Shown here one piece after another: positions 21,025 through 57,957 of a DNA stretch of 64,000 bases. Each line of letters begins with the position of its first letter. Positions within the stretch are counted from its first letter, which is position 1. The notes beneath the pieces are model-generated. The model was not told the origin of the DNA. It saw only the letters and a list, made by a program, of their open reading frames with translations, and made no database searches. Source of the stretch: an uncultured Bacteroidota bacterium (lineage in GTDB: Bacteria > Bacteroidota > Bacteroidia > Flavobacteriales > Flavobacteriaceae); NCBI GenBank assembly GCA_902626585.1, contig CACOGA010000002.1:62001-126000 (forward strand), in the 5' to 3' direction. The translations under genes were made by a program, and so were the position numbers.

Positions 21025-21032
21025 TAAATTTG
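21025..21032 (+). promoter_or_regulatory. Bacteroidota -7 promoter element (TAAATTTG) upstream of the zapA-region operon
   Basis: TAnnTTTG match 20 nt before the GTG start at 21052. Confidence 0.45.
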
Positions 21033-21051: not shown

Positions 21052-21345
21052 GTGAAAAAAATTAGAGACTTATTGCTTGATCTAGAAAAAAAAGTTGAAG
21101 TTAATCTAGAAGAACTTAAACAAGTAAGACAAGAAAACAATAAATTACTAAAAATGAATCAAGACCTGATTAATGAAAAGAACAATTCAGAGTTAGACTT
21201 AAAATCTCTTGAAGAAAAGTTTAAAGCTTTGAAAATAGCAAATTCTATTTCAGGAAATGAAAATAATAATATAAATGAAACAAGAAGTGAGATTGACTCA
21301 CTAATAAGAGAGATAGATTTATGTATTTCTCATTTATCAGAGTAA
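21052..21345 (+). CDS. small coiled-coil protein encoded directly upstream of zapA
   Basis: 97 aa, heptad-rich (VEVNLEELKQVRQENNKLLKMNQDLINEKNNSELDLKSLEEKFKALK), GTG start, 2 nt gap to the zapA start. Confidence 0.75.
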   Translation: MKKIRDLLLDLEKKVEVNLEELKQVRQENNKLLKMNQDLINEKNNSELDLKSLEEKFKALKIANSISGNENNNINETRSEIDSLIREIDLCISHLSE

Positions 21346-21347
21346 AA

Positions 21348-21635
21348 ATGAGCGAGAAGTTAAAAATTAAGCTATCAGTTGCAAATAGGGTTTACCCCCT
21401 TACGATTGACCCTGCAAAAGAGCAAGGTTTAAGGTTAGCATCACAGCAAATTAATACATTGATAAAAAAATTTGAACAGAATTATTCTGTTCGGGACAAG
21501 CAAGATGCGCTAGCCATGTGTGCGCTTCAAATTGCTTCCAGTAAAAATCAAAGTTCCTTGAATGAAGAAACATTTATCAACGAGATTGAAGAAAGCTTGA
21601 GCAAGATGATAGATATTCTTGAGAACAAAGAATAA
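21348..21635 (+). CDS. zapA: cell division protein ZapA
   Basis: MSEKLKIKLSVANRVYPLTIDPAKEQGLRLASQQINTLI...DALAMCALQIA; start moved to ATG 21348. Confidence 0.85.
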   Translation: MSEKLKIKLSVANRVYPLTIDPAKEQGLRLASQQINTLIKKFEQNYSVRDKQDALAMCALQIASSKNQSSLNEETFINEIEESLSKMIDILENKE

Positions 21636-21654
21636 GTTCTTTAAATAATTTTTA

Positions 21655-21820
21655 AAAACTACCTACACTAGTTTTTTTTGTAAACTCAACGCTAATTAAT
21701 TATAAAGGGTGAGTTTAGATTGTTAAATCGTGCTGAAATTTTGTTCAGATTTTTGATCAGTCTTGTAGCCCTAATCCTGTTTAAATGGAGTTTTAATAAA
21801 AAAGCTTTTGTAGGTTTTTT
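21655..21820 (+). ncRNA. ssrS: candidate 6S-like RNA (6S-Flavo type) downstream of zapA
   Basis: Long closing stem: ACCTACA 21661-21667 with TGTAGGT 21809-21815, continued after a 2x2 internal loop by AGTTTTTTT 21670-21678 with AAAAAAGCT 21798-21806 (one G-U); inner hairpins AAACTCA/TGAGTTT and CTGAA/TTCAG; followed by a T-run; sits 3' of zapA. Confidence 0.55.
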
Positions 21821-21847
21821 TTTAAATAGCCAGCCTAAGAATTGAGA

Positions 21848-22747
21848 TTAAGTTCTGGATCTGGGGTGAAATTTTTTCATCACATTAACCAATGCTTTAT
21901 TATCCAAATGCATATAAATTTCAGTCGTTGTTATACTTTCATGACCTAGTAATTGTTGTATGGTTTTTAAATCAGCACCATTTTCTAGTAGATGAGTTGC
22001 AAAAGAATGCCTAAATGAATGTGGGGATATTGTTTTTTTTATACCTGCCTTTTTGGAAAGACTCTTGACAATTGTAAAAATCATTGCCCTTGTTAGTTTA
22101 TATCCGTTTCTGTTTAAAAAAATAATATCTGATGACCTAGAATCAATATTTAATTTTGTTCTTGAGTTAATCAAATAAGTATTTATACATTGTTTGTTAA
22201 CTTCGCTCACTGGAACTAGTCTTTGTTTATTTCCTTTTCCAGTGACTTTTACAAAGTCTTCTTCAAAATATAAATCAGAAATTTTTAAATTAATTAGTTC
22301 ACTAACCCTTAAACCACAGCCATACAAAGTCTCAATAATAGCTATATTTCTTTCTGACTCTTTTTTTGTTTTATCTATATTATTTATCATAGAATTAATT
22401 TCTTCGATGGAAAGAGTGCTTGGAAGCTTTCTCCGAAGTTTAGGTGATTCAATATTAGACACAGGGTTAATTTTAATGAGTTTTTCGAATAATAAATAAT
22501 CATAAAAACTCTTTAAACCAGAAATTATTCTTGACTGTGAGTTTGCTTTAACTTCTTTTGAAATATTGTACACAAATTCTTTAATATGATCTGCACTTAC
22601 ATTTAAAGGACTTATTTTTCCTTTATCATTAAGAAATGATTTTAACTTATTTATATCATTTTCGTAACTGTTTATTGAGTTTTCGCTTAGGCCCCTTTCA
22701 ATTTTTAGGTAATCTTTAAAATCATTAATTGCGTGATTCCATTTCAT
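21848..22747 (-). CDS. xerD: site-specific tyrosine recombinase XerD
   Basis: LYGCGLRVSELINLKISD, HSFRHSFATHLLENGADLKTIQQLLGHESITTTEIYMH; 299 aa housekeeping Xer size. Confidence 0.92.
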   Translation of the reverse strand: MKWNHAINDFKDYLKIERGLSENSINSYENDINKLKSFLNDKGKISPLNVSADHIKEFVYNISKEVKANSQSRIISGLKSFYDYLLFEKLIKINPVSNIESPKLRRKLPSTLSIEEINSMINNIDKTKKESERNIAIIETLYGCGLRVSELINLKISDLYFEEDFVKVTGKGNKQRLVPVSEVNKQCINTYLINSRTKLNIDSRSSDIIFLNRNGYKLTRAMIFTIVKSLSKKAGIKKTISPHSFRHSFATHLLENGADLKTIQQLLGHESITTTEIYMHLDNKALVNVMKKFHPRSRT

Positions 22748-38537: not shown

Positions 38538-38540
38538 TTA

Positions 38541-38830
38541 TGTGAATCGTCTTGTCGCTATTTATAGAGGAAAGTCCGAACACCACAGTACAGCACAATG
38601 GCTAACGGCCATCGGTCGAAAGATTAGGAAAAGTGCAACAGAAAGAATGTACAGGTTATGCTGTAGTGAAATCATGTAAACTCTGTGCGGTGAAATGCCA
38701 TGTAAACCAGCTTATGAGAGTTGTACGCTCGATGCTGGAGGGTAGGCAGCTAGAGCATATAGGTAACTATATGTCAAGATAAATGACAAGAGCTTTTTAT
38801 AAAGTACAGAATTCGGCTTATAGATTCACT
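38541..38830 (+). ncRNA. rnpB: RNase P RNA component (bacterial class A)
   Basis: GAGGAAAGTCCGAACACCACAG, GAAAGATTAGGAAAAGTGCAACAGAAAGA, AGATAAATGACAAG...TACAGAATTCGGCTTATAGATTCAC; 5' GTGAATC pairs with 3' GATTCAC. Confidence 0.96.
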
Positions 38831-38832
38831 GA

Positions 38833-38856
38833 AAAGCGGGTATTACCCGCTTTTTT
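38833..38856 (+). terminator. intrinsic terminator of rnpB overlapping the 3' end of rsmD
   Basis: AAAGCGGGTATTACCCGCTTTTTT: GCGGGT/ACCCGC stem followed by T6. Confidence 0.88.
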
Positions 38857-57704: not shown

Positions 57705-57791
57705 GGAGAGGTGCCAGAGTGGTAATGGAGCAGATTGCTAATCTGTCGACGTGCAAACGTCGCCAGGGTTCGAATCCCTGTCTCTCCGCCA
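57705..57791 (+). tRNA. tRNA-Ser(GCT)
   Basis: GGAGAGG/TCTCTCC acceptor, CAGATTGCTAATCTG anticodon arm, long variable arm CGACGTGCAAACGTCG, GGTTCGAATCC T-arm, encoded CCA. Confidence 0.96.
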
Positions 57792-57794
57792 TCT

Positions 57795-57869
57795 CGGGGT
57801 GTAGCGTAGCCCGGTTATCGCGCCGCGTTTGGGACGCGGAGGTCGCAGGTTCGAATCCTGCCACCCCGA
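57795..57869 (+). tRNA. tRNA-Pro(TGG)
   Basis: CGGGGTG/CACCCCG acceptor, CCGCGTTTGGGACGCGG anticodon arm, GGTTCGAATCC T-arm. Confidence 0.96.
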
Positions 57870-57883
57870 CATAAATTTAGCTA

Positions 57884-57957
57884 GGTCGCGTAGCTCAGCT
57901 GGATAGAGCATCTGCCTTCTAAGCAGACGGTCAAAGGTTCGAATCCTTTCGCGATCA
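57884..57957 (+). tRNA. tRNA-Arg(TCT)
   Basis: GGTCGCG/CGCGATC acceptor, TCTGCCTTCTAAGCAGA anticodon arm, GGTTCGAATCC T-arm. Confidence 0.96.

Follow-up and report, generated by a model that had tools for sequence, protein, structure and literature searches.

The gap between zapA and xerD in the stretch of DNA that we analysed (64,000 nucleotides, hereafter the window) is, in our view with little room for doubt, a single 6S RNA gene, a member of the 6S-Flavo family whose product would act as a promoter mimic and tie up the primary-sigma holoenzyme. The gene lies on the + strand, as do all features given below unless a strand is stated, and the approximate extent of the mature RNA, as set by an Rfam match and a covarying closing stem, runs from the start of that stem at position 21661 to the end of the terminator T-run at 21823. 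RNAs of the 6S class form a rod that mimics an open promoter and sequesters the holoenzyme containing the primary sigma factor, which is released when a pRNA is synthesized from the 5′ strand of the central bubble. The locus was read correctly in an earlier note made from the sequence, and it is real yet ordinary in kind, a further 6S RNA from a family already described. What the analysis establishes is its identity, its structure, its conservation and its gene neighborhood.

A 6S-Flavo RNA Gene Between zapA and xerD

To identify structured RNAs, the whole window was searched against Rfam 15 using cmscan. Five matches exceeded their gathering scores, among them one to 6S-Flavo (RF01685) at positions 21684-21793, which spans the full model (positions 1-108 of 108) and scores 100.7 bits compared with a gathering score of 85 (E 1.6e-16). 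No other Rfam 6S model matched at the locus, and the Aar, STnc370 and snoRNA matches around the region fell far below their respective thresholds. Elsewhere, the window contains an RNase P RNA class A gene (38539-38836, 195.1 bits) and a cluster of three tRNA genes (57705-57957). The identity proposed in the earlier note, a 6S-like RNA between zapA and xerD, is thus borne out by the 6S-Flavo model, but the candidate had also been described as divergent, and it is instead a normal-scoring member of an RNA that is nearly universal in the family.

The source genome carries one copy of 6S-Flavo. Exactly one match was likewise detected in 119 of the 121 sampled genomes of Flavobacteriaceae, including all 100 of those of high quality, and none in the 14 control genomes. 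Across the phylum, the signal of the RF01685 model fades outside the family, as expected when a model is specific to a lineage. Judged by the neighboring xerD, the nearest named relatives are marine uncultured Bacteroidetes/Flavobacteriaceae genomes (MAGs), and the locus belongs to the Bacteroidetes, the group in which 6S-Flavo is found. The family was published as a motif that enlarges the set of known 6S RNAs and shares their function (PMC2864571); 6S RNA has been detected in F. psychrophilum (PMC9723704), and dRNA-seq in B. thetaiotaomicron revealed a 6S RNA together with two classes of pRNA (PMC7366714).

The gene for the cell division protein ZapA (21348-21635, with the first ATG of the open reading frame at 21321; Pfam PF05164, E 5.2e-15) is the immediate upstream neighbor of the RNA in 110 of 111 loci. 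It is preceded equally often by a homologue of orf97 (21052-21345), a small conserved gene that sits between zapA and the operon promoter described below, and whose product of 97 amino acids matched no family in Pfam or NCBIfam. The one exception to this neighborhood is locus L047, where the stretch is shorter because the contig ends there. Proximity to zapA is known for many 6S genes, and this association, which is common in the class and not obligatory, is present here. Downstream lies the convergent gene xerD (21848-22747, - strand; NCBIfam TIGR02225, above cut-off), which was rejected as a conserved partner of the RNA, since it is limited to the source clade and relatives carry rny (RNase Y) at this position, with a Pfam RNase_Y_N match in two of them.

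A Covarying Rod with a Long Closing Stem

To compare structures, 111 loci were oriented and inspected, and 87 of them were aligned. The strand from 21655 to 21830 (176 nt) folds with -40.6 kcal/mol, compared with -27.7 ± 3.5 kcal/mol for dinucleotide shuffles (z = -3.7), and 1 of 200 shuffles was as stable. Folding predicts a single rod, in which an outer stem, a 2x2 loop, a second stem part and a helix formed by AAACTC and GAGTTT are followed by a bubble and an upper stem. Among the 87 relatives, a structure of 31 pairs was paired in 98.9% of cells, with double changes in 25 of the 31 pairs; double-change cells numbered 305, against 75 ± 11 in shuffled controls, which were uncorrected for relatedness. 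When the 3′ partners were slid by 1-3 columns, a control in which relatedness is corrected for, pairing of the whole structure fell to 33-48%.

The long closing stem falls outside the Rfam 6S-Flavo model. Its 5′ arm (21661-21678) comprises ACCTACA (21661-21667), a 2x2 internal loop and AGTTTTTTT (21670-21678), and its 3′ arm (21798-21815) comprises AAAAAAGCT (21798-21806) and TGTAGGT (21809-21815). The earlier note had picked out these arms, along with the pairs AAACTCA/TGAGTTT and CTGAA/TTCAG and the T9 run, and each of them is in place in the DNA. The closing stem that it proposed is upheld by abundant compensatory changes, with both sides changed in 11 of 12 family-wide pairs and 98.4% of cells paired in the 87 relatives. 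For example, a relative of the same genus (locus L032, which is G056) has GCCTGTA/TACAGGC in place of ACCTACA/TGTAGGT, a difference of three compensated pairs around the same internal loop. The 2x2 loop, also part of the original proposal, is real but peculiar to the source clade, whereas most relatives have an unbroken stem of 12 bp.

Helices above the bubble covary as well. AGGG (21706-21709) pairs with CCCT (21769-21772) at its upstream edge, with both-side changes in 4 of 4 pairs, and the upper stem (21718-21762) includes GATTG (21718-21722) paired with CAGTC (21758-21762), where 4 of 5 pairs have changed on both sides, and a hairpin of CTGA (21733-21736) and TCAG (21745-21748), where 3 of 4 have done so. 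The hairpin was first drawn with the arms CTGAA (21733-21737) and TTCAG (21744-21748), and is present in that form. In several genera (L072, L074, L077, L082 and similar loci), the apical loop of 6S-Flavo is enlarged by an insertion of ∼17-25 nt that seems to form a hairpin. Following the closing stem, the T9 run (21815-21823) resembles the 3′ end of an intrinsic terminator, and a T-run is conserved in relatives.

Accordingly, both the fold and the covariation among 87 relatives give the RNA the long closing stem round an open central bubble that is required of the 6S class, and, with its upper stem, it resembles the canonical 6S RNAs (E. coli ssrS, B. subtilis 6S-1). It differs from these in its presumed partner, the Bacteroidetes primary sigma factor with its -7 box TAnnTTTG. 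Compared with RF01685, the helices, the full-length match above threshold and the Bacteroidetes origin are the same, but the Rfam model ends at the bubble edge, and the covarying closing stem, a boxA-like element and an operon context are added here. The source clade departs further from 6S-Flavo in having the 2x2 loop in its closing stem, and xerD, not rny, downstream.

Evidence Suggesting Co-transcription with orf97 and zapA

The sigma-A -7 box TAnnTTTG spans positions -12 to -5 in F. psychrophilum. Upstream of the RNA, this motif is concentrated in two bins that span -700 to -661, counted from the RNA core, just ahead of orf97, where it occurs 109 times, and it is found around the orf97 start in 107 of 110 loci; in the window it reads TAAATTTG (21025-21032) and would mark the promoter of a proposed orf97-zapA-6S operon. 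This box, ∼690 bp away, is the sole conserved sigma-A box upstream. Between the operon promoter and the RNA the motif is almost absent, save for 15 matches in the bin that adjoins the core, which would start inside the 5′ arm and give a transcript that lacks the covarying 5′ arm. An independent sigma-A promoter for the 6S RNA was therefore rejected, since no conserved TAnnTTTG is present in the ∼650 bp upstream, barring these 15 core-adjacent matches.

Directly after the zapA stop codon begins a boxA-like element, GTTCTTTAAATAA (21636-21648), recognized by its conservation and by the core that it shares with rRNA boxA. Elements of the GTTCTTTAAA type lie between zapA and the RNA, and at 81 of 111 loci the strict pattern GTTC[TA]TT[AT]A was found within 55 nt of upstream sequence, when about 0.001 would be expected per 55 nt. 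Relatives also have the GTTC[AT]TT core ahead of 16S and 23S rRNA (GTTCATTRACATATTG), and in the source genome, the rRNA spacer has GTTCTTTGACAT and the region before the 6S RNA has GTTCTTTAAAT, in agreement with the boxA core. The ATATTG tail that extends boxA at the rRNA of relatives is not matched on the 6S side, where the tail is AT-rich and different. Thus, the element resembles rRNA boxA in its core, in an AT-rich tail and in preceding a structured untranslated RNA, but it follows a protein gene and that RNA is 6S; judged by its sequence, it is a putative Nus-factor site. The element is absent in some close relatives (L032, L165-L167) and in a different family of the same order (L125, L126). 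A different assignment, in which AACGTTC would be an ECF-type CGT box, was rejected, since its C is present in merely about 60%. Among the papers listed by a literature search, which was not exhaustive, none linked 6S RNA to boxA, and a survey of boxA targets in gamma-proteobacteria left non-coding RNAs unconsidered, by its own statement (PMC5725501).

Because the sigma-A box is placed at the operon promoter and a boxA-like element precedes the RNA, we favor an orf97-zapA-6S unit, in which the 6S RNA would be the 3′ part of a longer transcript, made by NusB/S10 antitermination at the boxA after the zapA stop codon and then processed; we regard the chances of this arrangement as evenly balanced. 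Both the distribution of TAnnTTTG and the rRNA-like core, at a frequency far above expectation, suggest co-transcription with antitermination of the rRNA type, and this would refine, not oppose, the explanation of the locus as 6S-Flavo. The loci that lack the element, in close relatives as in the other family, argue against it, as does the restriction of the match to the boxA core, without the ATATTG that follows in rRNA. Alternatively, transcription of the RNA could depend on another sigma factor or on a sigma-A promoter whose box is poor, and GTTCTTT could be part of such a promoter.

The Central Bubble and a Predicted pRNA Start

The 5′ strand of the central bubble (21688-21705) contains the AAC of a near-invariant ACTCAAC. 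With the 6S RNA of E. coli as the model, we infer that pRNA synthesis would start opposite the conserved C of this motif (C21690), giving a pRNA that begins 5′-GUUGAGUUUAC (GUUGAGUUU).

On the 3′ strand, conservation across 110 loci marks an element resembling the sigma-A -7 box (21772-21779), which reads TAATCCTG in the source genome and TAAACYTG in most relatives (TAAACTTG or TAAACCTG). When numbered as a promoter, T is found at -12 in 106 of 110 loci, A at -11 and T at -6 in all 110, and G at -5 in 97, and the element is spaced 7-9 nt from the GAG helix; position -8 is C, not T, in 108 of 110 relatives. The T equivalent to -12 forms a covarying pair with A21706 at the upstream edge of the bubble, and the adjacent conserved A is unpaired. 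In its sequence and at the spacing of an open complex, the near-invariant TAAACYTG thus appears similar to the Bacteroidetes -7 box TAnnTTTG, although its conservation could have a reason other than -7 mimicry.

In the mechanism that we propose, the RNA would fold into one rod, with closing stem, open central bubble and upper stem, that imitates a melted promoter and so ties up the primary-sigma holoenzyme, in all likelihood during slowing growth. In the 3′ strand of the bubble, the T of the -7-like element would be held in the helix at the upstream edge, the next A would be free, and ∼7-9 nt beyond the element the strand would become part of the AAACTC/GAGTTT helix again, an arrangement like that of an open complex. 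Once nucleotides become abundant, polymerase would copy the 5′ strand from opposite C21690, and synthesis of the pRNA (GUUGAGUUUAC...) would unzip the closing stem and allow polymerase to escape. Polymerase binding, -7 mimicry, the pRNA start and the growth-phase role are thus predictions of the 6S-Flavo reading. Since the Rfam match, the conservation, the zapA neighborhood and the covarying structure all point in this direction, the RNA likely has the known 6S function, in which sigma-A holoenzyme is sequestered by a promoter mimic and released by pRNA synthesis.

The Inner Closing Helix and a Competing Hairpin

At the base of the bubble, AAACTC (21682-21687), which is predicted to provide the downstream duplex and the template strand for pRNA, pairs with GAGTTT (21788-21793). 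In the 87 relatives, this helix is paired in 99.6% of cells and has double changes in 3 of 6 pairs, and, although it is almost invariant, locus L106 has a compensated change, with ACCT opposite AGGT. The earlier note had placed the same 5′ sequence in a local hairpin, AAACTCA (21682-21688) with TGAGTTT (21710-21716). The sequence is present, but evolutionary support for the hairpin is absent: double changes are lacking, many loci break the outer pairs, and pairing is no better than in shuffles. The predicted fold pairs AAACTC with the distal GAGTTT and leaves the hairpin unused. We therefore rejected it as part of the native fold, where it would compete with the supported long-range helix.

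It might still form as a functional alternative state, mutually exclusive with AAACTC/GAGTTT, for example in a release state after pRNA synthesis, and both ACTCA and TGAGT are nearly invariant and complementary to each other. We consider this improbable, since, beyond the failure to exceed shuffles or to show double changes, loci L107 and L108 break TGAGT while retaining AAACTC/GAGTTT, and the change of ACTC to ACCT in L106 is matched by AGGT on the 3′ strand only. The predicted pRNA would itself cover ACTCAAC and so prevent the hairpin. When the RNA was folded with a pRNA footprint of 17-21 nt masked, the upper and outer closing stems stayed and the inner helix was freed, with no clear release hairpin.

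Far less probable still is the idea, raised in the earlier note as the outcome that would count against it, that the region is nothing but the 3′ UTR of zapA, ending in a long terminator hairpin, and has no separate function. This view can point to the zapA stop codon immediately before the region, to the T9 run at its end and to the absence of a conserved sigma-A box for the RNA alone. Against it stand the full-length 6S-Flavo match, the bubble sequences ACTCAAC and TAAACYTG, which a terminator does not need, the single copy in nearly every genome of the family and the covariation of several helices, which make the region far more than a terminator.

Implications for Flavobacteriaceae

What may prove useful in these results is a comparative anatomy of the 6S-Flavo RNA over 111 loci, giving the full covarying structure, including the closing stem that is missing from the Rfam model. 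They also offer a pRNA start that can be tested, a sequence within an RNA that matches the unusual -7 box of Bacteroidetes, and a boxA-like element ahead of a non-coding RNA. What goes beyond the description of the family is the TAAACYTG on the 3′ bubble strand, the conserved boxA-like GTTCTTTAAA and the distant sigma-A box of the operon. Taken together, these raise the possibility, which we put forward tentatively and hold to be somewhat unlikely as a whole, that the 6S RNA of Flavobacteriaceae is the 3′ end of an orf97-zapA operon under boxA/Nus antitermination shared with rRNA, and recruits polymerase through its own copy of the -7 box. If this were true, production of a polymerase sponge would be coupled to the machinery that makes ribosomes.
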